From NCBI GenBank assembly GCA_017461505.1, contig JAFTXV010000011.1, positions 186,001 to 250,000 on the forward strand: a stretch of DNA of 64,000 nucleotides, in the 5' to 3' direction. The notes under the pieces are model-generated. The model was not told where the DNA came from, did not search any database, and was given only the letters and a program-made list of their open reading frames with translations. The position numbers and the translations under genes are program-made. This document shows positions 20,074-35,378 of the stretch, piece after piece (positions within the stretch are counted from its first letter, which is position 1; every line of letters starts with the position of its first letter). The DNA comes from Paludibacteraceae bacterium (GTDB lineage Bacteria; Bacteroidota; Bacteroidia; Bacteroidales; Paludibacteraceae).

Positions 20074-20104
20074 TTGCGTATGTTGATTATATTTAGTAAC
20101 TTTG
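20074..20104 (+). promoter_or_regulatory. Promoter of the 12-gene envelope operon
   Basis: TTG (20074-20076), a 20-nt gap, then TAACTTTG (20097-20104). It is the only promoter of this type I see before the terminator at 35347, so all genes from 20173 to 35322 probably share it. Confidence 0.8.
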
Positions 20105-20172
20105 CAGCCCGTATTGTATAATGTTATGTTGTGCGTGATATTGTGCGATGTGTGAAATGATGATTAGGAAAA

Positions 20173-22653
20173 ATGCTACAGTTTTGTTGTGATATTATGA
20201 GGCGATTAAGCGAAAGGGCGGTATGCGTGGCGGTATTGCTAGGCGTGTCGGTATTGGTGTGTGCGACACCGCGCTGGGTGCGTCATTTGCCAAAGGCAGA
20301 GAATGCGACGTATCGTTATGTGGTGGAGTCGGCTACGGCAGCGAGTGAGGATGCTGCTCGTAATAAGGCGATGGGTATGGTGTTGCAGCATAGCATTATG
20401 TCGTTGGGTTTGGCTTTTAACTCGCAAGATGTGGAGAACGCGATAACGACAGGAAAGTTGCAAAGTCTGGTGTCGGAGTTTAAGGTGCCCGTGAATGAGG
20501 TATGTAGGTACCGTGAAGAGTTGTCGAATGGTGGTGTGCGCGTGTACTTGTTGTGTCAGGTGGCTGTAGCGGGAAATATAGCTGTTCAGTTTACGGAGTT
20601 TCGTCATTGCGGTGATGTGGGTTCGGATGAAGTGGGTGAGGTAAGTTTGCGTCCAGATGAGTGGAGCTACTATGAGTCGGATGCTTATTTTTCGGCATTT
20701 GAGGAGATGGATATAGAGTCCGGTAAGGCCGGTAAGGAGTGTGTGCAGGGTTTGGAGAGGAGCGTGAAGCAGCAGTTGGTGGATGATTTGCAGTTGAAGG
20801 ATAGTGCGTTGATAGCTATGATTGATGCGAAGACGTATATCACAAAGAAAGTGGGTTATGCAGTGGCTTTTGTGAAGCGTGAGATCATTACTGATAAATA
20901 CGATATGCATATTGAGGATGAGTTGGACGTATGTTACAATTATCTGAAGAATGCAGATAGTTATATGGCAGAAGGTAATATGGCAGAGGCTCGTGCGATA
21001 TTGCTTCGTGCAGAGGAGAAATTGGCGAGCATAGATCCTTATTTGTCGTTTATGAATGCGTATTCCGCGTCTCGTTCGGTGAGCCGATATGTGGAAGATC
21101 GCAAGGATTTTTCGAAGCAAGTGCATGAGAAGTTAGATAAGACGATAACGGGAAGTGTGAAGGCGAAGGAGAATAAGGTGCAGGAGTATGTGTTGATGGC
21201 TCAGGAGATGCTGGATCGTGGTTCGGTGGGTGATGGCTTGCGTTATCTGTATGCTGCTCAGATGTTTTGGGCTGATCTGAAGCACAATGGTCATATTATG
21301 ATTACAGATTCGGAGACGGGTATGCAAGTGAATGCGAATGTGTATTTGCAAAGTAAGATTAAAGAGGTGCTGAAGGATGTGCAAGTGACATGCGATGGGT
21401 ATGTGAATGATAATACATCGGAGGTGAAGTTGAGTTTCCGTTATAAGGATGAGCCTATTACGAGCATGAACTATACATATAATGCGAACTTGGGTTGGAG
21501 TGATGTATATACGGCGAAGGATGGTTGGTCTTACCTATTCTTGCCCGAGAGCAATAGACCCTCTGTGATAAAGATTCGTTTGGATTATCGCTATGAAGAT
21601 GAGGCGAATTTCGACTCGGAACTGCCACTGTTGATTAGCAAGTATAAGGCTAGATTCGACTATGACATGGTGGCGATGAGTAATGTGGAGATGGCCGTGA
21701 GACCAGTGGTGAAGTCGAGTGTGGTAGAGGATAATGGGGCGAAGAATTCTACGGATATGCATCAGAATATCGTGGTGAAGCGTATTGAGGAGCAGGAGCA
21801 TAAGGTGGAAGTGATGGACTCGTTATTTTATCAAGCGATTGTGCTAGATGTGTGTGAGGCAATAAAGAGTCATGCGGATAACTACGATGAGATGTCGAAG
21901 TATTTTACTCCTGATGGTTATCGGCAATATGAGCGTCTGATTAAATACGGCAATGCGCGCGTGATAAGCACAGAAGGTTGCAGATATGTGACACTGGGTG
22001 ACGAGGTGCAATGTCGTAGTGTGCCGATGCAGTTTACGTTTTCGAAGGGTAAGACCCAGTTGGAGAGCGTGGTATTTGTGTTTGATAAGACCAAGAAGAT
22101 AGACGGTGTGCAGTTTGCTTTGGAGGAGCGTGCTGCGCGTAACATCATGGGTAATACAGATATAGATGAGACAGCTCGTTTGGCGTTGATTAACTTCATG
22201 GAGAACTACAAGACGGCGTTCTCGTTGCAGCGTTGGGATTATATAGAGTCGATCTTCTCGGATGATGCAGTGATCATCACAGGTCGTAAGTTGATGAAGA
22301 GCGAGCAGGGTACGGATATGTCTTTGCAGTTGCACGGGTATGTGTATAACAAGATGTCGAAGGGTGAGTATATCAATCGCTTGAAGCGCACCAAGAAAGA
22401 GTGGATCAATATCAAGTTTGGCAACACAAAGGTAGAGCAGAGTCAACAGAGCAGTATGTACGGCATCTGTTTGTTGCAAGACTACTATTCGTCGAACTAT
22501 GGTGATCACGGTTACTTGTTCTTGTTGATAGATGCGACTGATGAGAAGTATCCGTTGATAAAAGTGCGTACATGGCAGCCAGAGTCGGCGGGTAGTACAC
22601 CATTTACGATGGGCGATTATGACCGTTTAACGAACGGTATGATAAATAAATAA
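20173..22653 (+). CDS. Secreted LPP20-like protein with C-terminal NTF2-like region
   Basis: 826 residues; I do not recognise the full-length family. It has a signal sequence (MRRLSERAVCVAVLLGVSVLVCATPRWV; ATG 20197 is as plausible a start as 20173). An LPP20/FlgO-like region follows (YRYVVESATAASEDAARNKAMGMVLQHSI, about 45-150). A helical middle section contains TPR-like stretches (YMAEGNMAEARAILLRAEEKL, LDRGSVGDGLRYLYAAQMF). The C-terminal part (about 680-800: FMENYKTAFSLQRWDYIESIFSDDAVIITG ... LLQDYYSSNYGDHGYLFLLIDA) looks like an NTF2/SnoaL-type fold. First gene of the operon; likely periplasmic. Confidence 0.75.
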   Translation: MLQFCCDIMRRLSERAVCVAVLLGVSVLVCATPRWVRHLPKAENATYRYVVESATAASEDAARNKAMGMVLQHSIMSLGLAFNSQDVENAITTGKLQSLVSEFKVPVNEVCRYREELSNGGVRVYLLCQVAVAGNIAVQFTEFRHCGDVGSDEVGEVSLRPDEWSYYESDAYFSAFEEMDIESGKAGKECVQGLERSVKQQLVDDLQLKDSALIAMIDAKTYITKKVGYAVAFVKREIITDKYDMHIEDELDVCYNYLKNADSYMAEGNMAEARAILLRAEEKLASIDPYLSFMNAYSASRSVSRYVEDRKDFSKQVHEKLDKTITGSVKAKENKVQEYVLMAQEMLDRGSVGDGLRYLYAAQMFWADLKHNGHIMITDSETGMQVNANVYLQSKIKEVLKDVQVTCDGYVNDNTSEVKLSFRYKDEPITSMNYTYNANLGWSDVYTAKDGWSYLFLPESNRPSVIKIRLDYRYEDEANFDSELPLLISKYKARFDYDMVAMSNVEMAVRPVVKSSVVEDNGAKNSTDMHQNIVVKRIEEQEHKVEVMDSLFYQAIVLDVCEAIKSHADNYDEMSKYFTPDGYRQYERLIKYGNARVISTEGCRYVTLGDEVQCRSVPMQFTFSKGKTQLESVVFVFDKTKKIDGVQFALEERAARNIMGNTDIDETARLALINFMENYKTAFSLQRWDYIESIFSDDAVIITGRKLMKSEQGTDMSLQLHGYVYNKMSKGEYINRLKRTKKEWINIKFGNTKVEQSQQSSMYGICLLQDYYSSNYGDHGYLFLLIDATDEKYPLIKVRTWQPESAGSTPFTMGDYDRLTNGMINK

Positions 22654-22729
22654 TGTATATAGGAGAAAGCCGAAAAGCCTGTGAAGTGAGTAGGCATGAA
22701 TGATACAACAACTTTAAATTATCAAGACA

Positions 22730-23305
22730 ATGAAAAAGATTCTATTGGCAATGTTTGTAGTAGCATTGTGCGCAAGTTGCGCAAGTAAGAAGCAAACCCC
22801 ATTGGCACAAAATCCTGGTTATCAACGTGTAGCTATTGAAGTTCCATGTGCAGAGGCAGGTTTTGACGATGCTGCTTATTTCCGTGGTACAGGTACATCT
22901 ACAGCTGTAAACCAACAAAATGCTCGTCGTGCAGCATTGCAACAAGCAAAGGCAATGGTACGTGAGAAATTGGGTGGCTTCGTACAAGGTTTGTCAACTG
23001 ACTACAGCCGCAATGTGACTGGTGAAGCAGCTGCTTCTAAGGTACAAAGTTTGATTGAAGGCGAGTTCGCTACTTTGGTAGAGCGCGAGTTGAACGATGC
23101 AGAGCAAATTTGCGAGAAGGGCTTTGTATTGCAAGACGGCTTGTTTGAGTACTGGATTGGTATTCAAATCCCAAAACAAAAATTGGTGGATGATTTGACC
23201 AGCCGTTTGGATGCAAACGAGGAATTGGAGATCGAGTTTAATCGTGAGGAGTTCCGTAAGTTTGCTGAGGACAAGATGAAACGCATGCAAGAAGCTAAGA
23301 AATAA
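22730..23305 (+). CDS. LPP20-like lipoprotein (operon copy 1)
   Basis: 191 residues. Lipoprotein signal MKKILLAMFVVALCASC with Cys lipidation site after a VALCAS segment. The core YFRGTGTSTAVNQQNARRAALQQAKAMVREKLGGFVQG matches the LPP20 pattern of a short beta strand followed by a helix of Ala-rich repeats. The C-terminal 40 residues are a charged helix (EFRKFAEDKMKRMQEAKK). It resembles the last operon gene at 34786, so the operon is bracketed by related lipoproteins. Role unknown; an outer-membrane assembly role is possible by analogy with CsgG/FlgO-type proteins. Confidence 0.82.
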   Translation: MKKILLAMFVVALCASCASKKQTPLAQNPGYQRVAIEVPCAEAGFDDAAYFRGTGTSTAVNQQNARRAALQQAKAMVREKLGGFVQGLSTDYSRNVTGEAAASKVQSLIEGEFATLVERELNDAEQICEKGFVLQDGLFEYWIGIQIPKQKLVDDLTSRLDANEELEIEFNREEFRKFAEDKMKRMQEAKK

Positions 23306-23320
23306 TATGACGCTGACCAT

Positions 23321-23356
23321 CCCCTCCTTTTAAAGGAGGGGGGGGAGCGGTTTTTT
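23321..23356 (+). terminator. Hairpin with U-tract inside the operon (possible attenuator)
   Basis: CCCCTCCT/AGGAGGGG stem with a TTTA loop, then a G-rich stretch and six T. If active it would lower expression of genes after the first two. Confidence 0.4.
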
Positions 23357-23425: not shown

Positions 23426-23433
23426 TTGAAGTT

Positions 23434-25158
23434 ATGAAAAAAGTATATTTGCTATTGATATTGTTGGTGGGAATGGTATTGAGTGGCTATGCTCAGTCAA
23501 AAAGTTTTGAAGAAATTCAAAAACGCCAACGTGAACGTTTTGCGCAAATGAAAAGCGCACAACAGGCGGAGTTTGATGCATTCCGCAAAGAGTGCAATGA
23601 CCGTTATTCCGAAATGATGCGAAAAAACTGGGAACAGTTTAATGCCTTTCCTGCTGTGGAACCTAAAGAGGAAAAACCAGTGCCTCCAGTGGTGTATGAA
23701 GAGCCAGCACCACAACCCGAGGTGAAACCAGAGGAGAAGCCAGCACCACAACCCGAGGTGAAACCAGAGGAGAAGCCTGTACCACAGCCTGAGGTGAAAC
23801 CAGAGGAGAAACCTGCACCACAGCCTGAGGTGAAACCAGAGGAGAAGCCAGCACCACAGCCTGAGGTGAAACCAGAAGAGAAGCCTGCACCACAGCCTGA
23901 GGTGAAACCAGAGGAGAAACCTGCGCCACAGCCTGAGGTGAAACCAGAAGAGAAGCCAGCACCTAAAGAAGAGGATAAGCCTATTGCGGTGAAGGAAGAT
24001 GTGATAGTGATACCTAAGCCAGCTCCTCAACCACAGCCACTAGCGCCTGTGGCACCCAAAGAGGAGATACCATTTGAGAGAGTGTCGGTGTCGTTCTATG
24101 GCACATTGGTCAGTATTGGATTCCCCGTTTCGGATGACTTGAAATTACAAGAGATTACAGAAAAACACTTAGCAGATACTTGGACAAGTCTGTCGGATGA
24201 GAAGTACGATATTACCATCGACAATGCGCTTTCTGTGCGCAAAAACTTAGCACTATGCGACTGGGCATATATAGAGATGCTCGGTGCGGTGTGCGAAAAG
24301 AAATATGGCAAGACGAATGAGGCTGTGCTGATGCAGGGATATGTATTGTCGCAGTCGGGTTATAAGATTCGTTTGGCATATGAGGGAAGTAAGTTGTATT
24401 TGTTGGTAGCTAGCCAATACAATATTTTATCTATGTCGTATTTTATGATCGGTGGTACGAAGTTCTACCCACTGAACTGCAATACGAAGAAGTTGCATAT
24501 CTGTGAGGCATCCTTCGAAAAAGAGAAGTCGATTTCGTTGCAGATGCGTAGCGAGCAGAAATTAGACGACGAAGCTACCACACCACGAAAATTATCATCG
24601 AAGTACGGCGTGATAGTGGATGTGGCGGTGAATAAAAATAATATCGATTTCTACAACGATTATCCATCGGCATACGTGGGTGATAACTCGGCTACTCGCT
24701 GGGCAGTGTATGCGAATACGCCCTTGGAGAAATCGGTAAAAAATGCGTTGTATCCTACATTAAAGCGTAGTATAGAGAATCTGAGCGAGCGTGATGCAGT
24801 GAATAAACTGCTGAACTTCGTGCAGACTGCATTGAAGTATGAGTATGACGATAAGGTGTGGGGTGGAGATCGCGTGTTCTTTGCGACGGAGACCTTGCAT
24901 TACCCCTATGCAGACTGCGAGGATAGAAGTATCTTGTTCTCGCGATTGGTGCGTGATTTGCTAGGTTTGGATGTGGTGCTGATTTATTATCCAGGTCACT
25001 TGGCAACTGCGGTAAATTTCGCGCAAGAGGTCAATGGTGATTATTTGCAGTACAAGGGCAAGCGATATGTGGTATGTGACCCAACCTATATTGGTGCACC
25101 TGTAGGCAAGACCATGCCTGGGATGAATAATCAAGAGGCACAAATAATAGCATTGTAA
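23434..25158 (+). CDS. Secreted protein with PEVK-type repeat stalk and transglutaminase-like domain
   Basis: 574 residues. Signal peptide MKKVYLLLILLVGMVLSGYAQ; a charged helix (SFEEIQKRQRERFAQMKSAQ); then seven 12-residue units PAPQPEVKPEEK (nt 23704-23955), a stiff Pro/Glu/Lys stalk such as is used to span the periplasm. The C-terminal half ends in a transglutaminase/protease-like core: YPYADCEDRSILFSRLVRDLLG (C495), YYPGHLATAV (H522) and VVCDPTYIG (D549), a plausible Cys-His-Asp triad. Enzymatic activity is inferred only from these motifs. Confidence 0.82.
   Translation: MKKVYLLLILLVGMVLSGYAQSKSFEEIQKRQRERFAQMKSAQQAEFDAFRKECNDRYSEMMRKNWEQFNAFPAVEPKEEKPVPPVVYEEPAPQPEVKPEEKPAPQPEVKPEEKPVPQPEVKPEEKPAPQPEVKPEEKPAPQPEVKPEEKPAPQPEVKPEEKPAPQPEVKPEEKPAPKEEDKPIAVKEDVIVIPKPAPQPQPLAPVAPKEEIPFERVSVSFYGTLVSIGFPVSDDLKLQEITEKHLADTWTSLSDEKYDITIDNALSVRKNLALCDWAYIEMLGAVCEKKYGKTNEAVLMQGYVLSQSGYKIRLAYEGSKLYLLVASQYNILSMSYFMIGGTKFYPLNCNTKKLHICEASFEKEKSISLQMRSEQKLDDEATTPRKLSSKYGVIVDVAVNKNNIDFYNDYPSAYVGDNSATRWAVYANTPLEKSVKNALYPTLKRSIENLSERDAVNKLLNFVQTALKYEYDDKVWGGDRVFFATETLHYPYADCEDRSILFSRLVRDLLGLDVVLIYYPGHLATAVNFAQEVNGDYLQYKGKRYVVCDPTYIGAPVGKTMPGMNNQEAQIIAL
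23704..23955 (+). repeat. Seven 36-bp coding repeats (PAPQPEVKPEEK)
   Basis: Seven near-identical 36-bp units encode PAPQPEVKPEEK (one PVPQ variant). Copy number could vary by slippage or recombination without breaking the frame. Confidence 0.95.
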
Positions 25159-25179: not shown

Positions 25180-25683
25180 ATGCGTACGTTTATAAAAATT
25201 ATTTTGATAGTAGCGGCTATAGCAGCGTTGGCTATAGGCGGATATTATCTGTATGAGCGTTTTTATAAGGGCGATGAAGGAATGGTAGAGGCCATCGATG
25301 TAGAGGATAATACCGAGCCAACCCACGGGTTGGTGATGTTTGAAGAGATAGAACTAGATACGCTGATGCTAGGTAGATGGCAACATACTGTGGACACTGG
25401 GTGGTATAGGGTATATACTACTGAGCCTGCTGGTGAAGACTATTACTGGGGTCGTGAGTGGAATACAGATGAGGATATCTTTGAGGAAGATTTGCAGCCC
25501 TATGGTAATGGTTGGTTTAAGTGGAAAAAAGAGGGCAATGAATTGCTGGAGGTGCATATGACAGATAATCGTGGTGCAGCGGTACCACGCGAGTATCAGA
25601 TGCTGAAACTAGATGGCAAAGTGATGAATTGTCGTGAGACGTTGGATAGAGAGAAGCATTCGTTTAGAAAAATAGGAGATTAA
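25180..25683 (+). CDS. Membrane-anchored lipocalin-like protein
   Basis: 167 residues. One N-terminal hydrophobic segment (IKIILIVAAIAALAIGGYYLY) acts as an uncleaved anchor. An acidic linker and a small beta-rich domain follow (LDTLMLGRWQHTVDTGWYRVYTTEP ... NGWFKWKKEGNELLEVHMTDNRGAAVPREYQMLKLDG), which looks like the short lipocalin-like domains of Bacteroidota. No function can be named. It sits 21 bp after the transglutaminase-like gene and 4 bp before the zinc-ribbon protease gene. Confidence 0.72.
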   Translation: MRTFIKIILIVAAIAALAIGGYYLYERFYKGDEGMVEAIDVEDNTEPTHGLVMFEEIELDTLMLGRWQHTVDTGWYRVYTTEPAGEDYYWGREWNTDEDIFEEDLQPYGNGWFKWKKEGNELLEVHMTDNRGAAVPREYQMLKLDGKVMNCRETLDREKHSFRKIGD

Positions 25684-25687
25684 CGAT

Positions 25688-27517
25688 ATGAGTGGAATTG
25701 TACGATTTTGCCCTGAGTGTGGCACAAAATTAGAGGAAGTATTTGCATTTTGCCCCGAGTGCGGTGCGAAGTTGGCAGGTATATTCCCTGTTGCGCAACC
25801 GTCTGCTGAGACAGCCACAGCAACAACGACGGATGATGCTCGTCCGTCAACCACTTTTAATGGTAGTATAGACGCGAATGGCGAGGCACCAGAGATGCCT
25901 GTTGCACCACAAGAAGAGGAAGCACCAGTACAAGCTCGTGGTTTTATCTTGACCAACTTGGTGAGTCTGGCTAAACGTTGGCATACGAATGTAAGTACCG
26001 TGGCAGCTGTGATCGATTGGTATGTGAAGAATATGCGTAAGTTGGGCGTGGTGTATAAGGTGTTGGATGCGAGCGATTATACGTATTTGAAGAAACCAAT
26101 ATTTGGTAATCCAAAGCACGTATCGTTGGGACCTGCCAATAGTTGGCATGAGTATGCCGATATTTTGAAGGATCAACATGATGCCGAGGTACGTGATAAA
26201 AAGCCCGAGACGGAATATGTATTTATCATAGGTAGCGATAAGGAAGTGCCAATGCCTACCTTGCCTAACTTTGTGTCCAATGATGATAGAAGTTTCGACA
26301 CAGACTTGCTATACGCCTATCCTTATGGTCAAGAGATGGAACGCAAGTTGATGTCGCAAGATATCTTCAAATACGATGCATTGTTCTATGTGGGGCGTTT
26401 GCCGTTTGCTGTAGATAGTACGCTGCAGGATATGGAAGATTATATGGTGCGCGTACTAGAGAATCGTTGTTCAGTGGATGTACGCGAGGCGTATGCTCAG
26501 TGTGATCCTCACTGGCGTAATGTGACGATGACCATTACGGATGATCTGGCACAATACGGTATATTCCCTCGTTATTCATCGGATATGCCAAGTGAGTTGT
26601 TATACCAAGGTCGCATATTTACCACACCGATGGTGATTATTCACCCTCAGACTCGTGAGCAGTTGCCACCCGTGTTTAATAAAGAAGCGAATTATATCTT
26701 CTTTAATATGCATGGTGGTGGCACTCGTGATGCGCGTGGTTTCTATGGTTATTCAGATGAGATGGGTGGCGAAGGTATTTGTCCAGAGGTATTGTCAACA
26801 GCGACAGAACCTAATATGTTGTTTACGCAGGCGTGCTATGGCGGTAAATTTATAGGTTATGCTAAACGTGAATGTATGCTATTGACGGCATTAAATACGA
26901 ACACGCTGACGTATGTAGGTTCATCGCGTATAGCATATGGCGATGGTGACCAACATGGTGGTAATATATCGGCATCGGATGTGTTGGCCAAAGCGTTTAA
27001 CTTCTATGTTATGCGTGGTTTTACGGCTGGTGCAGCGTTCTTCCAAGCTCGTATTCATACGTTTAAGAATCGTCCGGGGTGCCCTATACATGCGCTGACC
27101 ATATGTGAGTTTAACCTATATGGAGATCCGATGATGCACGTTCGTAAGTCTGAGGATAGTTATAAGATGGTAAGTAGTAAAGCGGCTGTTTTGCGTCCGC
27201 ATGAGATGGTAGGTGTTGTACGTGAGGAAGTACTGATGAATAAATCGGTAGGTGGCCAACAAAGTCTATTGCAACAAGTACGTTCTGCCGTTGACAAGAA
27301 TATCATGGATATCTCAGCATCAATAGCAAAGACGTTGTATTCGCAATATGGTATTCCTGCTCGTGAGCCAGCGATTATCAGTCGTAGAACCTACGCAGAT
27401 GGTCATAAGGAGTTGAGTTTTACTTATAAGCAACCAATTGAGGAAGGCTTGACCAATGATGTGATGGCGATTACATCAGATAAGGGCGATTTGCAACGCG
27501 TGATGACAACCAAATAA
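25688..27517 (+). CDS. Zinc-ribbon protein with gingipain-type (C25, clan CD) cysteine protease domain
   Basis: 609 residues with no signal peptide. The N-terminus is a zinc ribbon, FCPECGTKLEEVFAFCPECGAKL (Cys 8, 11, 22, 25), followed by a Pro/Ala/Glu linker to about 80. The protease domain carries the clan CD dyad: H342 in IFFNMHGGG and C383 in LFTQACYGG, each after a hydrophobic strand as in peptidase C25. A C-terminal region (500-609) follows. Gingipains are secreted, but this protein lacks an export signal and should face the cytoplasm unless exported otherwise. The next gene (27549) and the one at 29436 share the N-terminal zinc ribbon. Confidence 0.85.
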   Translation: MSGIVRFCPECGTKLEEVFAFCPECGAKLAGIFPVAQPSAETATATTTDDARPSTTFNGSIDANGEAPEMPVAPQEEEAPVQARGFILTNLVSLAKRWHTNVSTVAAVIDWYVKNMRKLGVVYKVLDASDYTYLKKPIFGNPKHVSLGPANSWHEYADILKDQHDAEVRDKKPETEYVFIIGSDKEVPMPTLPNFVSNDDRSFDTDLLYAYPYGQEMERKLMSQDIFKYDALFYVGRLPFAVDSTLQDMEDYMVRVLENRCSVDVREAYAQCDPHWRNVTMTITDDLAQYGIFPRYSSDMPSELLYQGRIFTTPMVIIHPQTREQLPPVFNKEANYIFFNMHGGGTRDARGFYGYSDEMGGEGICPEVLSTATEPNMLFTQACYGGKFIGYAKRECMLLTALNTNTLTYVGSSRIAYGDGDQHGGNISASDVLAKAFNFYVMRGFTAGAAFFQARIHTFKNRPGCPIHALTICEFNLYGDPMMHVRKSEDSYKMVSSKAAVLRPHEMVGVVREEVLMNKSVGGQQSLLQQVRSAVDKNIMDISASIAKTLYSQYGIPAREPAIISRRTYADGHKELSFTYKQPIEEGLTNDVMAITSDKGDLQRVMTTK

Positions 27518-27548: not shown

Positions 27549-29156
27549 ATGAGTTATTGTACAAAATGTGGCAACGAACTGAAAGAAGGTGCTAAGTTCT
27601 GTGTATATTGCGGCGAGAAATTGGCTCCTGCTCCACAACCAACAGTAGAAACTCCAGCGCCAGTAGAAGAGGTAGCAGATGAGAAATTGGATATACAAGA
27701 GGGCGATTTGCAATCGGCAAGTCGACGTGTGTATTGGGATATACAGGCAGGTCAAGTAGCACGCATAGTTAAGTCAAGCGATTTGGCTAAGTTTAAGAAT
27801 ATCAAAGGTATTGTAATCTCCGAGGGTACTACTGCCTATGTGCGCGTGAACGGCAAGACAGTACTGAGTTTGGAAGGTGGCGTATATGACTTTAAGCAAA
27901 GCAAACCCAATCCTAAAGAGAGTGGTTTGACACATGCGTGGAGCGTTATCAAGAATATATTCTCTAGCAAAAAGCCATTAACGGCAGAGGAAGAGAAAGC
28001 GATCGTGGAGAATATTTGCAAAGAGAACGACTTTACTATTATCGTATTGGTAAACAAAGCGTTTCAATTGTTGGTTGGAGCAAAACAGGGTAGTTTGGAC
28101 GACTATAAGAACTTTGTTCCAATGCAAATACAAACTCGTCATTATACCCTGCAAGTAGGTGTAAATGCTTATTTCCAAATACAAGATAAAGAGCAATTCA
28201 TCTTGCATTGGTTGACAGATAAGGCCGAATTGACCACTGCACATTTGGTGGATGAGTTGAGCGATATCATCCGTACCCGTTTGGCAGCATGCTTGGATGA
28301 TACTGTTTGGGAGGGCAACAAAATACCGGATGACTTACGTCGTGCTCTGAAAGATCAACTGAATGAGAATGCCGTGAATGAGTATTTCGGTTTGAGTATT
28401 GCGCGTGTGGTGGAAATCACTGCAGTGAGTGAGGATTTGGAGCGATTCCGTCAATTGAGCAATGAGATGTATCTTAGTGAACAAGAGTTGGATTATCTCA
28501 AACGTACCAACGACTTCAAGAATCGCTTGGCAGAAGTGCAAAATGCGCAACAGATTCACGAGGCACGCACAGGGGTGGAGTTGCAACGTGAGTTGGATAA
28601 TATCAACAAGGATAATTTGTTGCGCGAAGACGAACTAGAGAAGTTCAAGTTGATACTTGAGAGCGAACGTCGCTTGCGTGAGGCGCGCAGCAAAGAGGAG
28701 GAAGATAAGGTCATGGCAGAGATACGCCAAGCAGGTTTACTCCGTGAGATTGACTACAAACGTCTAGAGCAAGAGGCTGATATCGAGAGAAGACGTCGCG
28801 AAGCTGACTTTGAGTTTGAACAACAACAACGTCAAGAGGCTTTAAAAGCAGAGCATCGTCAACGTCAGTTTGAGCAGTTTATGGCTATGGAAAGTGCAGC
28901 CAATCAACATGAAGAGGAGATGGCACGCATCCAAGCTGCAGGTAATCAGCAATGGTCAGAGCGCTTGCACCAACAGCAACAAGCACAAAACGATCAAATG
29001 ATGCAACTGCTACAAACCATGGCAGGCGCACGTGCTCCACAACCTACCTATCAGGCACAACCATCAGCCACACCAACCAAGTTCTGTCCAGAGTGTGGCA
29101 AGCGTATATCTGTAGATAGCAAACATTGTCCTGAATGTGGCGCAAAACAACTATAA
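27549..29156 (+). CDS. SPFH (band 7) protein with zinc ribbons at both ends
   Basis: 535 residues, no signal or TM segment. It has an N-terminal ribbon CTKCGNELKEGAKFCVYC (Cys 4, 7, 18, 21). An SPFH/virion-core-like domain (about 55-290: YWDIQAGQVARIVKSSDLAKF ... FSIARVVEITAVSEDL type) follows. A long charged coiled coil (300-450) and a Gln-rich stretch lead to a C-terminal ribbon FCPECGKRISVDSKHCPEC (Cys 513, 516, 527, 530). SPFH proteins scaffold membrane microdomains or oligomeric rings. Here it follows the zinc-ribbon protease by 31 bp and is probably its partner. Confidence 0.88.
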   Translation: MSYCTKCGNELKEGAKFCVYCGEKLAPAPQPTVETPAPVEEVADEKLDIQEGDLQSASRRVYWDIQAGQVARIVKSSDLAKFKNIKGIVISEGTTAYVRVNGKTVLSLEGGVYDFKQSKPNPKESGLTHAWSVIKNIFSSKKPLTAEEEKAIVENICKENDFTIIVLVNKAFQLLVGAKQGSLDDYKNFVPMQIQTRHYTLQVGVNAYFQIQDKEQFILHWLTDKAELTTAHLVDELSDIIRTRLAACLDDTVWEGNKIPDDLRRALKDQLNENAVNEYFGLSIARVVEITAVSEDLERFRQLSNEMYLSEQELDYLKRTNDFKNRLAEVQNAQQIHEARTGVELQRELDNINKDNLLREDELEKFKLILESERRLREARSKEEEDKVMAEIRQAGLLREIDYKRLEQEADIERRRREADFEFEQQQRQEALKAEHRQRQFEQFMAMESAANQHEEEMARIQAAGNQQWSERLHQQQQAQNDQMMQLLQTMAGARAPQPTYQAQPSATPTKFCPECGKRISVDSKHCPECGAKQL

Positions 29157-29181: not shown

Positions 29182-29418
29182 ATGGAAGAGATTATTGGAA
29201 CCGTGCATCTGCAAGTGAGCAACGTAGGCTCTAAGTCAGAAGGATTATATGCCCATTTGGTATTGGAGTCGGGAGATGACTATATACTCTATCAAGCAGG
29301 GCACTTGGCTATGGAGGAGGCCTATTTTAAGGCGTTTGATGGCCAACAAGTAAAAGTGCTGGGTGAAATAGAACCAGAAATGAACTATATACGTGTTGAA
29401 AATATACAAACCATTTAA
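29182..29418 (+). CDS. Small OB-fold-like protein
   Basis: 78 residues from ATG 29182 (MEEIIGTVHLQVSNVGSKSEG). The pattern of five strands with YAHLVLESGDDYILYQAG and QQVKVLGEIEPEMNYIRVENI suggests a small OB-like barrel, as in proteins of the DUF4131/tOB type, but I cannot name the family. An upstream in-frame start would overlap the ribbon of the SPFH gene; the ATG at 29182 avoids this. It lies between the SPFH and the TM zinc-ribbon genes. Confidence 0.65.
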   Translation: MEEIIGTVHLQVSNVGSKSEGLYAHLVLESGDDYILYQAGHLAMEEAYFKAFDGQQVKVLGEIEPEMNYIRVENIQTI

Positions 29419-29435: not shown

Positions 29436-30503
29436 ATGTCAACTTATAAATGCCCAGAGTGTGGCAATCCAATTAATTTGAATGAACGTCATTGCGCGAA
29501 TTGCGATTACGATGTTACCGATAGCGAGTATGCAGCACTTGTGCCTGCACAACCAACAGCACCCGTAGTGGAAAAACCAAAGGCACCTCAAGTGTCAGCA
29601 CCTCAACGTCCAGTAGCTGCATCAGGTATAGATTCCATAATGGCGCATGGTAGTGTGGATGCATCGTCGCATACTACGCATACCGAGGATAAATCTACAC
29701 ATAATATAGATAACTCACAAACGGTGAATAACACCAATCAAACGGTTACGAATACCTTCATCATTATGGGTGGTGGTCCTGCACCTATTCCACAAAATAT
29801 TGATCCACAAACAGCTGAAGCATTGAAGCAGGCGCAGCAAGCGCAAGCACAGCAAGCAGCTCAACAGCAGGCGCAACAAGAAGCCGTTCCTACTTTTAGT
29901 GCGTATGCTCAACCACAAGCGGCAGCACCTGCGCAAGAGGGCTCCAAAGGGATAGGTTCGATAGATGGCACTATCACCAAGAATCAGAAGAAAGGTAATA
30001 AGGGATGGATTGCTATTGTGGCAGCCGTGATAGTGGTGGTTGTAGTGGCTGTGGTGCTACTTGGTGGCAAAGAGGAACAAGAAACGGAAGCTCAAGCGAC
30101 TACTAATACTACTACCGTTGTGACGAAGACGAATAAGGCCGCTGCACCAAAAACAACTACCGCAACTTCGCAAGAGGTAAGCGCACAGAAAGTAGCAGCA
30201 GCTCCTACTACTAATAAGACTGCAACAGCAGCAAAACCAAAGCCTAAAGAGCCTACATTGGCTGAGATGACTCCTGCTCAAGCATATACCAAGGGAATGC
30301 AACTATTTGACAAAGGTAATTACGACCAAGCCATTGCTCACCTAGAAAAAGCGGCCAATGCCAACCATGCTGATGCTGCATATCAGTTGGGTGAGATGTA
30401 TCTGAGTGGAGTAGGCGTAGATGCCAATAAAGAGACGGCCATTCGCTGGTATAAAGTAGCTGCCAAGGCAGGACACAAACAAGCAAAACGTAAACTATTC
30501 TAA
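29436..30503 (+). CDS. Zinc-ribbon, single-TM protein with Sel1 repeats
   Basis: 355 residues. It has an N-terminal zinc ribbon CPECGNPINLNERHCANC (Cys 6, 9, 20, 23), a low-complexity Thr/Asn/Gln/Ala-rich linker and one TM helix near 190-211 (WIAIVAAVIVVVVVAVVLLGG). A Thr/Ala/Lys-rich periplasmic stretch leads to C-terminal Sel1/TPR repeats (AYTKGMQLFDKGNYDQAIAHLEKAANANHADAAYQLGEMYLSGVGVD). The layout fits a bridge: ribbon in the cytoplasm, Sel1 repeats in the periplasm. It could link the cytoplasmic ribbon proteins to the exported ones. Confidence 0.85.
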   Translation: MSTYKCPECGNPINLNERHCANCDYDVTDSEYAALVPAQPTAPVVEKPKAPQVSAPQRPVAASGIDSIMAHGSVDASSHTTHTEDKSTHNIDNSQTVNNTNQTVTNTFIIMGGGPAPIPQNIDPQTAEALKQAQQAQAQQAAQQQAQQEAVPTFSAYAQPQAAAPAQEGSKGIGSIDGTITKNQKKGNKGWIAIVAAVIVVVVVAVVLLGGKEEQETEAQATTNTTTVVTKTNKAAAPKTTTATSQEVSAQKVAAAPTTNKTATAAKPKPKEPTLAEMTPAQAYTKGMQLFDKGNYDQAIAHLEKAANANHADAAYQLGEMYLSGVGVDANKETAIRWYKVAAKAGHKQAKRKLF

Positions 30504-30515: not shown

Positions 30516-31076
30516 ATGAAGCGTTTATTATTATCTATGGCGGTAGTATGTATGAGTGCTATGGTATGGGCACAGACTACTACTGATGCAGCTCCAATGA
30601 CTGCGGTAGATTCTTTGGCTGCGAAAATCATTATTATCCCTCATATCGCGATTACGAGTGACATACCAGCACCTGCACAAGGATTGATGATGGATCGGAT
30701 GAAGCGTATATTGCTGAAGAATGGTATTGTGGATACCAGCGACCGCTCACGCTTTGTACTGACAGTAAAGTCGAATGTGACCGATGGTGAGTGGACTGCT
30801 ACCGTACCTCCTAAGTATGGTATGGTGGTGGAATTTACATTCTATGTAGGTGATGTGGAGTCGGGTATCTTGTATGGTAGTCATAGTATTCGTAAGAAGG
30901 TGGTAGCTGATAGCGAAGAGGATGCTTACATGCAAGCGGTAAAGGGTATTCGCGTATCCGATCCTGCATTTAAAGTATTGATAGACAAGGCAAAAGTACG
31001 AATCGTGGAGACCTTGGATGCACGCGATGAAAAATTAGTAATAGAAGGTAGCGATTATGAAATCAATTGGTGGTAA
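30516..31076 (+). CDS. Secreted protein of unknown function
   Basis: 186 residues with signal peptide MKRLLLSMAVVCMSAMVWAQ. I do not recognise the family. The mature part has alternating strands and helices (AKIIIIPHIAITSDIPAPAQGLMMDRMKRILLKNGIVDTSDRSRFVLTVKSNVTD), similar in layout to the N-terminal part of CsgG/FlgO-like outer-membrane proteins, but this is only a resemblance. The 3' end overlaps the next gene by 20 bp, so translation may be coupled. Confidence 0.7.
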   Translation: MKRLLLSMAVVCMSAMVWAQTTTDAAPMTAVDSLAAKIIIIPHIAITSDIPAPAQGLMMDRMKRILLKNGIVDTSDRSRFVLTVKSNVTDGEWTATVPPKYGMVVEFTFYVGDVESGILYGSHSIRKKVVADSEEDAYMQAVKGIRVSDPAFKVLIDKAKVRIVETLDARDEKLVIEGSDYEINWW

Positions 31077-31965
31077 ATATGGGCTATTGCTTGTGGTATT
31101 GGCATGCTTGATTCCTACTCAAGTGTTGATGGCCAAGAAACCGAAATGGCTGCACACTATGCAACAGGATTATATCATTGTTTCGGCAGAGGATGCATCG
31201 TTGGAGCAAGCTAAAGAGAAAGCGATGAACGTGGTGCGTCAGGAGATTATGAATTCAATAGCACAACATGTAAGTTCGAGTACTCAAATGACATTGCGCG
31301 AGTTGGAAGTGAACAACCAATATACGGAGATGTCACAGTATATAACTTCGATGGCTGCAGAGTCGGTGGATTATCCATTTCTGAATGGTATATCTCCATC
31401 CATGGTGGAAGAGGTGTATATAGAGAAAGCGAAGAAGAATAAGCAAAAGATCTATCGTTATCATGTGAAGTATCCTTATTCGAAGCTGGACTTGCTGGAT
31501 AGAGTAGAGCAATTCTTGGCATATGAGAATGATTTGCAGACGAAAATGAATCGCTTTGTAGCAGATGACTTTACGACTGCCACTTCGGTAGAGGAAATGC
31601 AGCAACGCAAAGCCGATTTGCAGGTGTATCAATCTAGTTTACCCAAGACCGATGCCCGCCGTGCTCAGTGCGACAAGTTGCTATTGCGCTACGACGACAT
31701 GATTCGCAGCGTACGTATCTCGGTGGATGCTGTATCACAAACAGAGATGCTCGTGTCATTGCGCTATGGCGACAATATAGTGACGATTAACAAAGCACCT
31801 AAATTGCGTTCGGAGTGCTTGATGAATGTGGCATCGCAATTACGCGACAAGCAATGGGTAATCACTTATGACTACAGTGGTTGTTATGCCGATGAGGCCA
31901 ATGCAGCCGAACTATCCTATACTATCCAAGGTAAGAAAATCACACAAACTGTATATGTTAAATAA
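31057..31965 (+). CDS. Secreted LPP20-like protein
   Basis: 302 residues. Signal sequence GKYGLLLVVLACLIPTQVLMA, then KKPKWLHTMQQDYIIVSAEDASLEQAKEKAMNVVRQEIMNSIAQHV, the same strand-plus-helix layout as the N-terminal region of the 20173 protein (PRWVRHLPKAENATYRYVVESATAASEDAARNKAM). A helical segment and a C-terminal beta domain (about 225-302) follow. It is probably periplasmic. The shared N-terminal region with the first operon gene suggests internal duplication within the operon. Confidence 0.72.
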   Translation: MKSIGGKYGLLLVVLACLIPTQVLMAKKPKWLHTMQQDYIIVSAEDASLEQAKEKAMNVVRQEIMNSIAQHVSSSTQMTLRELEVNNQYTEMSQYITSMAAESVDYPFLNGISPSMVEEVYIEKAKKNKQKIYRYHVKYPYSKLDLLDRVEQFLAYENDLQTKMNRFVADDFTTATSVEEMQQRKADLQVYQSSLPKTDARRAQCDKLLLRYDDMIRSVRISVDAVSQTEMLVSLRYGDNIVTINKAPKLRSECLMNVASQLRDKQWVITYDYSGCYADEANAAELSYTIQGKKITQTVYVK

Positions 31966-31978
31966 TTAAAATTGTAGT

Positions 31979-33355
31979 ATGAAAAAACTATCTCTTTTAT
32001 TTGTTGCACTATTGGCAACTACTTTCGCTTTCTCTGCTCCTGTAGATGCTGAAAAAGTGGGTACCTATCACCGTAGTTCGTTGGTAGTGATGCCAATCAT
32101 TCACATGCAAGACTCTTTTTCCAACGAACTAGTCAATGCAGCATTGACAATGCCTTTCCCTGATCGTTACGATAAGCTTCAATTTATGGATAATCCCAAT
32201 GATTTTATTGTGAAGTTGGACAACCATTGCAACCTCAAGCAAGTGAAAGATACGACTGCCTATAAGATGTATGCAGTAGCTTTGGAGCAAGCACAGATTG
32301 CCAAATATATGGTAGCAGCTTGGTTTAACTACAACGATTCTACGGGCTTTAATACCCATTATATTGCAGAGAAGGGTAACTACGATGCTTCGGTGTTGGC
32401 ACAAGAGTTGGCTGCAGGAACTATCAGTGGCGCTGTGAATATTGCAGATGCTAGTGATGAGTTGATTAGCAAGTCATTTGTCTTGGTCAATGATATGGCA
32501 TATATCAACCATGCAGCGCGTGCGGAATTGGCTTCGGATATCTTAGAGGGTATTCAAGCGGCTGCTCAAGCGACTACCGAGGCCGGAAAGACGATCTCAA
32601 ACATGCAAACGGGTATTGGTTTGCTGGATGGCATCACCGGACTCGTAGGTGGCGCAGTGGCTTTGGCAGGTGCTGCTACTGCTTTGGCAGCTGATGTAAC
32701 ACAAACAGTTAACGAACTGCTTGATATTGAGGGGTTTGCTGTTATGGAATGTACCTACCTCTATCAATTGGTATGGGACGAAGAGACACAAAATACATTC
32801 TATTCTAAATACTATACCGAAACTGCTGATTCTGCAAGAGTAGCTGCTTTCTGGGCAGATAATACTACTTTCAAGATGAAGTATGTAGGTATGATGCCAA
32901 CTACTACCAACAATGCTACAGCCTTCCATGCTGGTGAGTATGCCCACTTATCTCAAGAGGAGCAAATCACTATCACCTGCTCTCGTACCCAAGACGATGC
33001 CATCAATAATTTGCAGAGTGAATACGAGGATTTCCGCGTATATACTCCGATCACAGAGGTTGTAACGAATCCTAAGGGTAAGGTGATTGGTATAGTTGCA
33101 CCTATTGGCATGAAAGAGGGGGTAAGTCCCAAGAAGAAATACAACCTCATGGAGCAAACGATGGTCAACGGGCGTACGGTCTATAAGTTAGTAGAAGCCA
33201 ATCTAAAGCCAGATAAGGAAATCTGGGACAACCGCTACGTAGGTGAGTCTGAAGCGGAAGGGACTGGTACTCAAGGTACGATGTTCAAGACCTTGAAGCA
33301 AGTCTATCCTGGTATGCTTTTGATGGAGAGCAAAAAGAAACAAAAAAGTAAGTAA
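31979..33355 (+). CDS. Secreted protein of unknown function with hydrophobic mid-section
   Basis: 458 residues with signal peptide MKKLSLLFVALLATTFAFS. I do not recognise it. A Gly/Ala-rich hydrophobic stretch near 210-240 (GLLDGITGLVGGAVALAGAATALAADV) could insert in a membrane or form a helical hairpin, as in some pore-forming or secretin-associated proteins. The C-terminus is charged (LLMESKKKQKSK). It starts 13 bp after the LPP20-like gene and ends 12 bp before the next secreted-protein gene. Confidence 0.7.
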   Translation: MKKLSLLFVALLATTFAFSAPVDAEKVGTYHRSSLVVMPIIHMQDSFSNELVNAALTMPFPDRYDKLQFMDNPNDFIVKLDNHCNLKQVKDTTAYKMYAVALEQAQIAKYMVAAWFNYNDSTGFNTHYIAEKGNYDASVLAQELAAGTISGAVNIADASDELISKSFVLVNDMAYINHAARAELASDILEGIQAAAQATTEAGKTISNMQTGIGLLDGITGLVGGAVALAGAATALAADVTQTVNELLDIEGFAVMECTYLYQLVWDEETQNTFYSKYYTETADSARVAAFWADNTTFKMKYVGMMPTTTNNATAFHAGEYAHLSQEEQITITCSRTQDDAINNLQSEYEDFRVYTPITEVVTNPKGKVIGIVAPIGMKEGVSPKKKYNLMEQTMVNGRTVYKLVEANLKPDKEIWDNRYVGESEAEGTGTQGTMFKTLKQVYPGMLLMESKKKQKSK

Positions 33356-33367
33356 TACAATACGATT

Positions 33368-34765
33368 ATGAAAGCAATCTTTTTATCATTCGTTCTATTG
33401 TTCTCGGCTGTCTGCTCAACCGCTTCAGCGCAAGCGCAGAAGAAAGCTAACAAAGATACCGAGCAATGGCGATATGAGGTGCAAGCCAGTGTAGGGCAGG
33501 CACCCAAAGGTACAGCGATTATGCGCGTGTGGACCTACTCCAAGAATCCACAAGTGGCTATCATGCAAGCCGGTAAGAATGCAGTACATGCTATTCTCTT
33601 CACCGGTATTGCACCTACCAATGATAAGTTGCGCTTGCCTGGCGTACCAGCCATCATCAATGACCCAACGATTGAGACGCAACATGCCGAGTATTTCAAA
33701 ACCTTCTTTGCGGATGGTGGTCCATATCAACGCTATGTATCCTTTATGGCCAATGGAGTACCTGATCAAGTGATCAAGATAGGCAAGGAGTATAAAGTGG
33801 CTATCAATGTCACAGTACAAGTGGATGTATTGCGTCAACGCCTGATGGATGATAATATCTTGCCTAAGATGGCAGAAAATATTGGTAAAGTGCCTACCAT
33901 CATGGTGGTACCAAGCGACCAATGGTGTTACGAGAAAGGCTATGTGACCACACTTGGGAATCATACCTATCCTGACTATGCTCTGGCACTTCGTAGTGAT
34001 AAGGAGTTGTTGCAAGTGATCACGGTGATCAACGAACTCTTCTCGCGTCGCAATTTTCCATTGAAGAATCTGGAGTCAACGTTGAAAACCCTTGAAAATC
34101 AAGCAGTAGAAGATGCAGTGATGACCAATAAATCTGGTGCGGAATTGCTGGTATCTCCAATTGATGAACTCAAGAATGTGGCGCATGCTGATATTTGGGT
34201 ACAAATTAATTGGTCAGAGAACCTAGTTGCTGGTGGTAGCAAAAAGGCGTTGTCGGTGGTGATGCAAGGCTTGGATGCGTATAATGACAAGCAGGTGGCG
34301 GGTGCTTCAGGTACGGGCAATGCGGTGTTCACTTCGCAAGCACAAACCTCCATCATGCTTGAGGAATTGCTGGTAGGACATATGGAGCCATTTGCCAAAC
34401 AACTTACCAACTATTTCAAGACCTTGGAAGAGGATGGACGTCCCATCGTAGCACACATCAAGGTGTTCGACGATTTTGATGGTGACCTCGAAAATGACTA
34501 CGATGGCTATGAACTAGGTGAAATCATCGAAGAGTGGATGGCAGATAATACAGTAAAGGGTAAGTTCAATACCGTGATTGCTACCGAAAATCACATGCTC
34601 TTTGAGAATGTATGCATCCCATTGCAAAACGAGAAAGGACGTGATATGGATGCTCGCAGATGGATGCGCGAGTTGCAACGTATGTTGCGTGATCAATACG
34701 AAATCGAATCTAAACTCACCACCAAAGGGCTAGGCGAGGCTACACTGATTCTAGGAAGTAAATAA
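33368..34765 (+). CDS. Secreted protein, possibly DUF6175 family
   Basis: 465 residues. Signal peptide MKAIFLSFVLLFSAVCSTASAQ. The mature part has Rossmann-like or CsgG-like alternation (IMRVWTYSKNPQVAIMQAGKNAVHAILFTGI, TIMVVPSDQWCYEKGY, AELLVSPIDELKNVAHADIWVQINWS). An acidic Asp-rich loop (VFDDFDGDLENDYDG) lies near 360. It resembles the Bacteroidota DUF6175 family, but I am not certain. Function unknown; the context suggests an envelope complex with the neighbouring LPP20-like lipoproteins. Confidence 0.68.
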   Translation: MKAIFLSFVLLFSAVCSTASAQAQKKANKDTEQWRYEVQASVGQAPKGTAIMRVWTYSKNPQVAIMQAGKNAVHAILFTGIAPTNDKLRLPGVPAIINDPTIETQHAEYFKTFFADGGPYQRYVSFMANGVPDQVIKIGKEYKVAINVTVQVDVLRQRLMDDNILPKMAENIGKVPTIMVVPSDQWCYEKGYVTTLGNHTYPDYALALRSDKELLQVITVINELFSRRNFPLKNLESTLKTLENQAVEDAVMTNKSGAELLVSPIDELKNVAHADIWVQINWSENLVAGGSKKALSVVMQGLDAYNDKQVAGASGTGNAVFTSQAQTSIMLEELLVGHMEPFAKQLTNYFKTLEEDGRPIVAHIKVFDDFDGDLENDYDGYELGEIIEEWMADNTVKGKFNTVIATENHMLFENVCIPLQNEKGRDMDARRWMRELQRMLRDQYEIESKLTTKGLGEATLILGSK

Positions 34766-34785
34766 TTGATAAATAGTATTTTAGT

Positions 34786-35322
34786 ATGAAACGATTAGTA
34801 TATACCTTGCTGATAGCATTGGTTTGCGTAGGTTGCAAGAGCAATCAAAACCTTATTAATGGCAACGAACAACTGCTGACCGTCCCTTGTGCTTCCATCG
34901 TAAGCGACCAGTTCGCTACACGCGCTTTGGGTACCGCCAATTCCACCAACTTGCAAAATGCCAAGGACAAAGCCATTGCCGTAGCTCGCAGAGAACTAGT
35001 GAGCAGTATGCAAACATCTGTGCAACGTATCATTGACACCTATGCCACTTCCTACGAAGAAGATATGTCCGCACGTTTTCAGTCTTATACCAAGGATGTA
35101 TCGCGTTTGACTAGCAATCAAATGTTGGTGGGTAGCACCATCGCATGCGAGAAGATAACCCAATCTGTGGATAAAAAGACCAAGAATGTGATTTACCACG
35201 CCTATGTGGTAGTAGAGGTAGATAATGCACAATTGCAAAAGACTGCGCAACAACAAATCTTGCAGTCATTGCCTGAGACCGATGCCTTGCGTAATATCTT
35301 CCGCGAGGGAATGGGAAAATAA
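34786..35322 (+). CDS. LPP20-like lipoprotein (operon copy 2)
   Basis: 178 residues. Lipoprotein signal MKRLVYTLLIALVCVGC with a clear lipobox (VCVGC). The core ATRALGTANSTNLQNAKDKAIAVARRELVSSMQTSVQRII aligns by eye with RGTGTSTAVNQQNARRAALQQAKAMVREKL of the 22730 lipoprotein. Last gene of the operon, followed by a strong terminator. Confidence 0.8.
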   Translation: MKRLVYTLLIALVCVGCKSNQNLINGNEQLLTVPCASIVSDQFATRALGTANSTNLQNAKDKAIAVARRELVSSMQTSVQRIIDTYATSYEEDMSARFQSYTKDVSRLTSNQMLVGSTIACEKITQSVDKKTKNVIYHAYVVVEVDNAQLQKTAQQQILQSLPETDALRNIFREGMGK

Positions 35323-35346
35323 ACGCAACAAGATAATGCTAACAAC

Positions 35347-35378
35347 AAAAAATCGCAGCTATTACGCTGCGATTTTTT
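35347..35378 (+). terminator. Bidirectional terminator
   Basis: Stem AATCGCAG / CTGCGATT with flanking A and T runs, between the convergent envelope operon and the glutamine synthetase gene. It can serve both strands. Confidence 0.85.

Follow-up and report, generated by a model that had tools for sequence, protein, structure and literature searches.

Proteins of the SPFH superfamily are repeatedly paired with proteases, according to passages of PMC2636767. In the HflKC-FtsH and stomatin-NfeD/ClpP systems an SPFH scaffold gene lies beside a protease gene and a role as a membrane scaffold for proteolysis has been suggested. The same neighbourhood is found in a locus of the Paludibacteraceae bacterium assembly GCA_017461505.1 (contig JAFTXV010000011.1, positions 186,001 to 250,000), a stretch of 64,000 nucleotides that is called the window here and whose own numbering is used throughout. 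In this locus of thirteen genes the partner of the SPFH protein (gene 6) is a zinc-ribbon peptidase of the clan CD family C25 (gene 5) and not FtsH or NfeD, and the pair is additionally joined to a set of outer-membrane proteins. Judged by its sequence the locus is conserved and composed of two modules, module C with the predicted cytosolic and inner-membrane parts (genes 5-8) and module P with the predicted periplasmic and outer-membrane parts (genes 9-13). The function that we favour, tentatively and as something not quite probable, would be that of an SPFH-protease that is coupled to the envelope and has an outer part open to exchange; that the two modules make up a trans-envelope machine is a step that we infer.

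A second system of reference is PspA-YdjGHI of Bacillus subtilis, in which membrane proteins encoded in the same operon as YdjI recruit it to the membrane, as reported in parts of PMC8581546. Of the two SPFH groups compared, the YdjI type (Pfam Band_7_1) aligned best with gene 6, and gene 8, with its zinc ribbon and predicted transmembrane (TM) helix, is a candidate recruiter of the SPFH protein. There is no PspA/ESCRT-III Pfam match among the 13 proteins, and a protease and an outer-membrane module are found instead. The flagellar H-ring or basal disk (FlgO/FlgP/FlgT; FlgP/PflB in Campylobacter jejuni) shares with the gene set LPP20-type outer-membrane lipoproteins, an inner-membrane-anchored repeat protein and, as far as most loci are concerned, an LpoB/FlgT_C-like protein that is predicted to be periplasmic. 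According to portions of PMC12222027 and PMC7990780, LPP20, FlgP and FlgT have a common fold and the latter two make up rings associated with the outer membrane; a hairpin insert of FlgP and FlgT that forms the ring is described in the former paper. The locus differs in that no flagellar gene occurs among its conserved families (the genome was not searched for flagellar genes), in that similarity to FlgT is weak, and in that a cytosolic SPFH protein and a caspase-like protease are also encoded.

The C25 peptidases of the gingipain type are secreted. Like them, gene 5 exceeds the Pfam C25 cut-off and has a His-Cys dyad; unlike them, it lacks a signal peptide, bears a zinc ribbon and shares an operon with an SPFH gene. 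The last relative is a DUF6175/LPP20 operon of Bacteroidales, which corresponds to module P and also exists without module C, and which in the window is joined to module C and to a transglutaminase-like protein. No paper in the open-access PMC literature mentions DUF6175, or SPFH together with LPP20, and a broader search of the open-access literature gave no description of this gene set among the matches listed, subscription journals being largely outside its scope. We consider the gene set real and conserved and, as far as was searched, undescribed, as a first-pass annotation of the window had supposed; as far as a search with the term DUF6175 reaches, the same can be said of the standalone P operon.

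Conservation and gene order of the locus

Relatives were collected by scanning 84,980 species genomes with an alignment of the SPFH family, in which one nine-residue pattern, which misses relatives, matched 75 stretches. This resulted in 65 loci with SPFH relatives, 64 of them under titles that name Bacteroidales or genera and families which we take to belong to Bacteroidales. Four rows (L021-L024) stem from the same genomes as L057 and L062 and were left out of the maps, conservation counts, tree correlations and locus counts.

Seven families form the core of the locus, namely C25, SPFH and the gene 8 family of module C and B, DUF6175, D and E of module P, where B is the LpoB/FlgT_C-like family and D and E are LPP20-type families. 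All seven were found in 33 loci, in 27 of which they follow one order at median gaps of 4 to 45.5 nt. The commonest arrangement, type I, reads lytic transglycosylase - C25 - SPFH - gene 7 - gene 8 - B - DUF6175 - D - E, with the lytic enzyme directly before C25 at a median gap of 22.5 nt (26 loci); the transglycosylase is missing from the loci closest to the window (L025-L034). Type II, found in seven loci with Alistipes or Rikenellaceae titles, reads B - DUF6175 - gene 9 - x - gene 10 - E - transglutaminase-like - C25 - SPFH - gene 7 - gene 8, and gene 7 is present in all seven. Type III reads B - DUF6175 - D - E - C25 - SPFH - gene 8, followed in three loci by a transglycosylase that lies on the other strand in two, and further gene orders occur in L062, L067 and L070. 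The ten distant loci of type IV have SPFH followed by C25 without P genes.

Genes of module P accompany SPFH/C25 in 52 of the 56 loci outside type IV, window included, and the contigs of the other four end less than 2 kb downstream. The first-pass annotation had joined the C25-zinc-ribbon, SPFH-zinc-ribbon and LPP20-like genes into one system, and in these 52 loci they are indeed found together and not scattered. In the 52 informative loci of types I-III, modules C and P share a strand and stay within about 10 kb despite several rearrangements, and SPFH identities among the co-located loci go down to 28%. The linkage of C and P is therefore not accidental, since dozens of loci besides the window have both, with the genes rearranged in several ways. 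Within module C, C25 directly adjoins SPFH in 63 of 66 loci, window included, the two being apart in L075 and L083. A wall-type enzyme was found in 38 of the 56 non-distant loci (window included), either a transglycosylase (30, of which 28 on the same strand) or a transglutaminase-like protein (8) and never both; the enzyme that often takes the place of the transglutaminase-like protein in other loci is an MltC-like lytic transglycosylase.

Some distant loci of type IV have neighbours or records that deserve mention in their own right. The one locus without a Bacteroidales title (L075) is of this type and lies on a 1.78 Mb contig titled Pseudoflavonifractor; its SPFH protein groups with that of L083, titled Muribaculaceae and from the same isolate series, and the record is possibly mislabelled. 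In L077 (L013/L014) the SPFH-C25 pair is preceded by PP2C, a 1403-aa fusion of FtsW/RodA with a penicillin-binding protein, a Ser/Thr kinase and BrxL. In Prevotella pectinovora (L084:9545-20401) the SPFH and C25 genes form a row with the genes of two zinc-ribbon repeat proteins and of a DRT-type (UG26) reverse transcriptase.

Distribution and lineages of the two modules

By the distribution of its genes the locus divides into a module C that is rare and a module P that is common and independent. In a sample of 393 genomes of the order the SPFH protein was detected in at least three, a lower bound as at most three candidates were scored per genome, and DUF6175 in 91, including all three SPFH genomes. 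Over the phylum the SPFH profile found only the window's own genome among 395, a weak negative as no more than two candidates per genome were scored. Within the genus of the window DUF6175 was present in 29 of 37 genomes, and C25 and SPFH in the same four of the 37. Sixteen further DUF6175 neighbourhoods were without a C25, SPFH or gene 7 match in the stretch covered, some of the contigs being short; one of the neighbourhoods, L105, lies close to the end of its contig and resembles the P portion of a type II locus. The standalone P operon takes the form gene 11 - DUF6175 - gene 9, in which DUF6175 is often divided over two or three genes and which in some cases includes E and gene 10, or the forms B - DUF6175 - D - E and B - DUF6175 - gene 9 - gene 10.

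The trees of C25 and SPFH agree closely (Mantel r 0.92, 63 loci), and correlations of 0.74 for SPFH and E and of 0.81 for B and DUF6175 were obtained; none of the Mantel correlations given in this work was reached by any of 999 shuffles. The history of module P in the window appears to be another one. The window SPFH protein is 79% identical to that of L025, and the window DUF6175 protein is only 19% identical to that of L025, with 61% to L028 and 40% to the standalone operon L115. In the DUF6175 tree, from which 6 of 102 sequences without a domain match of more than 200 residues were left out (L034, L043, L061, L066, L089, L103), the window falls together with L028-L031 and L191 within the standalone clade and apart from the standalone copies of its own genus. 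In the SPFH tree L025, L026 and L027, which have the other P type, lie among the group of the window and L028-L031. On these FastTree topologies at least two changes of P type would be needed, and since the P lineage of the window differs from that of its closest C relative, P partners appear to have been exchanged.

The grouping of L191 (G026:C6) with the window is an observation apart. No C25 or SPFH was detected in it, and its window-type DUF6175 and genes 10 and 9 lie beside a stretch of N and a contig end, so that module C of this genome may be missing from the assembly only.

Genes and transcription signals of the window

The thirteen co-directional and closely packed ORFs (twelve genes had been counted at first) occupy 20173-35322 on the + strand in the order gene 1 - E - transglutaminase-like - gene 4 - C25 - SPFH - gene 7 - gene 8 - gene 9 - gene 10 - gene 11 - DUF6175 - E. 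They are flanked on the opposite strand by relA/spoT upstream (17862-19628) and by glutamine synthetase III downstream (35392-37635). The small gaps and overlaps of the first-pass annotation hold for most junctions (-20 to 31 nt) but not for those between genes 1 and 2 (76 nt) and genes 2 and 3 (128 nt).

Of the one promoter and one strong terminator that had been proposed, the promoter was confirmed by eye as a putative Bacteroidetes-type element at 20074..20104 on the + strand, with TTG at 20074-20076, a spacer of 20 nt and TAACTTTG at 20097-20104, a match to the -7 box TANNTTTGC at 20097 in what we take to be the consensus of these bacteria. The final terminator also stands, as a probable Rho-independent hairpin and T run after gene 13 (about 35344-35378, +; dG -23.5, z -5.8). 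That it is the only one is doubtful, as a second strong hairpin (23311-23349) followed by GU6 was found at 23311..23356 on the + strand (dG -25.5, z -3.2), a probable terminator or attenuator, and the TANNTTTGC box is absent from the gap in which it lies (23306-23433). A transcription break between 23305 and 23434 had been named beforehand as speaking against a single system, and a partial or full break between genes 2 and 3 is likely from this hairpin. A biological separation of gene 2 by the terminator is made less credible by the type II loci, because in these, too, the genes run E - transglutaminase-like - C25 - SPFH - gene 7 - gene 8. The hairpin was also considered as a dispersed repeat and rejected as such, being found at a single place in the source genome (81.85% complete).

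Several short direct repeats of the TCGGTTAATGGCGGTGAA type lie directly 3' of this hairpin (23357-23425), and an array of AACTAACTAAT-type repeats is found upstream of the promoter (19870-19935). A clean empty site cannot be claimed from the nearest relatives G014 and G025, which have the relA/spoT block and glutamine synthetase III with other neighbours, some contigs ending nearby.

Gene 5 (25688..27517, +) of module C encodes a 609-aa protein with an N-terminal zinc ribbon and a C25 peptidase domain, without a signal peptide. The clan CD assignment made at first was borne out by a match to Pfam Peptidase_C25 (5.7e-10; 39.4 bits against a cut-off of 23), shared by 22 of 27 members of the gene 5 family, and by His342, Gly343 and Cys383, which are kept in all 65 C25 proteins, His342 and Cys383 presumably being the catalytic dyad as in the family. 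The N-terminal zinc ribbon is present in 58 of the 65, with each of its cysteines in 54-60. An N-terminal hydrophobic segment was found in none of the 65 C25 and 66 SPFH proteins by a simple hydropathy rule that also flags an internal hydrophobic stretch in 22 of the 66 SPFH proteins and under-calls signal peptides (11 of 31 transglycosylases, for example).

Gene 6 (27549..29156, +; 535 aa) has a zinc ribbon at either end of a predicted SPFH domain and a coiled coil assigned by eye. Its family carries the zinc ribbon in 64 of 66 members at the N-terminus and in 54 of 66 at the C-terminus. The SPFH label stands by profile comparison, in which the 27-member family profile aligned with one made from 13 YdjI-type SPFH proteins of the same order (hhalign 92.5%, P 5e-7) and reached only 32% with generic Band_7; ORFs with fewer than three relatives were left out of this comparison (3 of 16 YdjI-type and 1 of 24 Band_7). 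The label did not hold in Pfam, where gene 6 itself has no SPFH match and only one of the 27 family members matches Band_7 (E 0.0029), nor in a sequence search of solved structures with the family profile, where no SPFH structure was matched. Gene 6 is thus, by profile only, a putative SPFH superfamily member of the YdjI type.

The small protein of gene 7 (29182..29418, +; 78 aa), labelled OB-like at first, belongs to module C and has family members in 45 of the 65 loci besides the window. Gene 8 (29436..30503, +; 355 aa) encodes a zinc ribbon, an Asn-rich stretch, a TM helix and Sel1 repeats (4.4e-12), in keeping with the first description of one zinc-ribbon protein with TM helix and Sel1. 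Of 61 family members, 58 have the zinc ribbon, which is below the Pfam cut-off in gene 8 itself, and 52 have a hydrophobic segment in their interior. Of all members of the locus gene 8 is the one most clearly predicted to cross the inner membrane. The three zinc-ribbon proteins first recognized, at 25688, 27549 (N- and C-terminal) and 29436, were all retained. Between the zinc ribbon and the TM helix of gene 8 an Asn/Thr/His-rich stretch (like THNIDNSQTVNNTNQTVTNTF) was observed in the window (29436-30503), L025, L041 and L063, and a similar stretch occurs in a repeat protein of the distant locus L084; it is possibly a beta-rich or amyloid-like assembly motif.

The remaining genes encode exported or membrane-anchored proteins. 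Four of them appear LPP20-like, not three as first counted (20173, N-terminus; 22730; 31057; 34786), and none of the four has a Pfam LPP20 match of its own. Gene 2 (22730..23305, +; 191 aa) and gene 13 (34786..35322, +; 178 aa) are the first and second copies of the lipoprotein family E, gene 13 lying within module P. Gene 2 matches a family E protein of L058 (blastp 2.2e-17) and gene 13 one of L025 (2.8e-77); the family E profile, which includes both, gives 9.9e-44 and 2.8e-47. Pfam LPP20 was matched by 8 of 24 E proteins at 0.05 (best 1.4e-5), and the comparison with the H. pylori LPP20 structure gave E 0.02. Family D, a 446-aa LPP20 protein (Pfam LPP20 9e-11; E 0.008 to an LPP20-family structure), connects these groups, its N-terminus reaching 94.8% with E and 98.7% with the gene 10 family in profile comparisons in which reversed controls stayed at or below 1%; gene 10 against E directly gave only 10.5%. 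Gene 10 (31057..31965, +; 302 aa) is an exported LPP20-like protein of module P (family D profile 1.3e-4). Gene 1 (20173..22653, +; 826 aa, exported) is labelled LPP20-like solely by a weak similarity of its N-terminus to gene 10 (blastp about 4e-5 to 1e-4), the remainder being without a family.

The other exported proteins of module P are gene 9 (30516..31076, +; 186 aa), gene 11 (31979..33355, +; 458 aa), to which no family was assigned and which belongs to the beta type of the module, and gene 12 (33368..34765, +; 465 aa), which is DUF6175 (Pfam 1.9e-93). Gene 9 matches the family B profile at 0.0066 only, and the window is without a clear B protein. In other loci B proteins match Pfam LpoB (14 of 25), FlgT_C (8 of 25), CsgG (2 of 25) and LptE (2 of 25). 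The C-domain of DUF6175 against the N-domain of B gave 63-74% in profile comparison, which is suggestive and was not used, and no match was obtained for the D C-terminus with B or DUF6175, the DUF6175 N-domain with D or E, or gene 11 with B or DUF6175.

Gene 3 (23434..25158, +; 574 aa, exported) has PEVK-type repeats and a transglutaminase-like domain. The latter label was upheld by the triad Cys495-His522-Asp549, invariant in all nine sequences aligned, even though the Pfam match (0.038) is below cut-off. A run of near-identical PAPQPEVKPEEK repeats is present in the gene (23434-25158), and its eight aligned relatives are without repeats in that form. Gene 4 (25180..25683, +; 167 aa) has an N-terminal membrane anchor; its description as lipocalin-like was dropped, as there was no Pfam family and no homologue in the 65 other loci. 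No homologue was found there for gene 1 either, so that both genes occur in the window only.

Interpretations of the two-module locus

In the reading that we favour the P proteins would form an assembly at the outer membrane and cell wall, and the wall enzyme would remodel or open the peptidoglycan so that this assembly can span the wall; transglutaminase-fold enzymes can cleave wall cross-links. The Sel1 protein of gene 8 would cross the inner membrane as a bridge between the modules, and the zinc ribbons of gene 8, SPFH and C25 would build a membrane-bound SPFH scaffold that holds the protease. A change in the envelope assembly, be it damage, attack or completed assembly, would then switch the protease on against cytosolic or membrane targets. 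We infer the contact between the modules, the bridging by gene 8, the peptidoglycan remodelling and the switching of the protease by the envelope part. A bolder and more doubtful version would be a trans-envelope machine of Bacteroidales in which a flagellum-independent, H-ring-like collar is connected across the wall, by way of a single inner-membrane protein, with an SPFH ring in the cytosol that holds a caspase-like protease, the outer part acting as a replaceable sensor or port and the protease executing the response.

Several observations weigh against the favoured reading. Module P occurs without C in many genomes, and therefore has a job of its own, and C occurs without P in the ten distant loci. 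The hairpin between genes 2 and 3 speaks against a single transcript. Neither wall enzyme was found in 18 of the 56 loci, several of which are cut short upstream, and in the type I locus L043 the transglycosylase directly precedes SPFH and P with no C25 found. A relative of the transglutaminase-like gene 3 ends a P-type locus (L102:5005-6771) with no C match in 20 kb, and because of this the protein may belong to P and not to C. The tree correlations between the modules are weaker for SPFH and DUF6175 (r 0.37-0.52) and for SPFH and B (0.47). The likeness of B to FlgT is weak (E 0.14 to Vibrio FlgT structures, with 2 of 25 B proteins matching LptE), and the SPFH, C25, gene 3 and DUF6175 profiles matched no informative solved structure. 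Of the single system first proposed, the conserved linkage stands; it is not one indivisible unit, as P is also independent, genes 1 and 4 occur in the window only and the P lineage appears to have been exchanged.

The independence of P, the exchange of its lineages, the probable terminator inside the operon and the LpoB-type domain in 14 of 25 B proteins are all in line with two neighbours that serve envelope quality control, which we hold to be somewhat unlikely. Module C would pair SPFH with a protease for the breakdown of damaged proteins of the membrane or cytosol, and module P would be an independent operon for envelope maintenance, with LpoB-like activation of cell-wall synthases and LPP20 lipoproteins, brought together by the same envelope stress and not by contact. 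However, mere neighbours would not be expected to stay on one strand within some 10 kb in the 52 informative loci despite rearrangements, and neither the predicted passage of gene 8 through the inner membrane nor the type I lytic enzyme directly before C25 fits them well.

A surface structure or secretion machine is unlikely. In it P would be an H-ring-like collar through the outer membrane, the lytic enzyme would open the wall, SPFH would be the inner-membrane base and C25 would process or release cargo. The LPP20 and FlgT_C-like members and the MltC-like enzyme are as expected from such a machine, and the Vibrio H-ring proteins FlgO/FlgP/FlgT are reported, in passages of PMC7990780, to aid outer-membrane penetration. 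Yet the scan of the 13 window proteins and of L041 proteins gave no Pfam match to an ATPase or export channel, except for CsgG in 2 of 25 B proteins, there is no obvious cargo gene, and a cytosolic protease would be odd as a processor of exported cargo.

Less likely again is a system against phages or competitors, in which the envelope part would sense attack and C25 would trigger growth arrest or death. Its occurrence is patchy as expected for defence, in 4 of 61 relatives (G048, which matches by zinc ribbons only, left out) and in at least 3 of 393 genomes of the order, and caspase-like peptidases are common in described conflict systems, as stated in parts of PMC7159879. Of the ten type IV loci, counted with single query proteins, two have BrxL beside them (one match over 90 residues only), three have kinases and one has a DRT-type reverse transcriptase. 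The flanks of types I-III tell otherwise. In 43 of these loci 174 flanking proteins of 150-899 aa were picked, and 120 of them were scanned without a control set; no PADLOC model matched more than two of these at 1e-20. Of the best 25 among the 28 models matched, one was GlgB-like, one was a type I specificity subunit and the others were candidate PDC models, and of the 112 Pfam families the 25 found most often were mostly metabolic or housekeeping ones. A defence island was accordingly rejected for types I-III on flanking genes. PADLOC 2023 on six window proteins gave nothing for genes 5, 6, 10 and 12 and weak matches for gene 3 (0.03) and gene 8 (8.6e-4). No match was found for gene 6 in plasmids, for gene 5 in phages or, by pattern scan, for the SPFH family in viral contigs; mobility by plasmid, phage or virus was set aside, no relatives being found with the one protein or family tried per collection.

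Unrelated genes lying together by chance, a notion to which genes 1 and 4 and the exported set found alone elsewhere lend something, can hardly be credited, being contradicted for C and P as groups by co-location conserved in dozens of loci down to 28% SPFH identity.

The picture of a single machine thus gives way to one of two modules, a rare one of protease and SPFH that would dock on an envelope module which is exchangeable and independently common. It ties together three subjects that have been studied separately, namely SPFH scaffolds and proteases, bacterial clan CD (caspase-like) proteases, and LPP20/FlgT-type outer-membrane proteins outside flagella. Type I loci are present in the named isolates Butyricimonas synergistica DSM 23225, Mediterranea massiliensis and Bacteroides caecigallinarum (where the contig ends after gene 8), which makes tests possible, and the apparent exchange of the outer module would amount to a natural experiment as to which outer part is required by the protease module.

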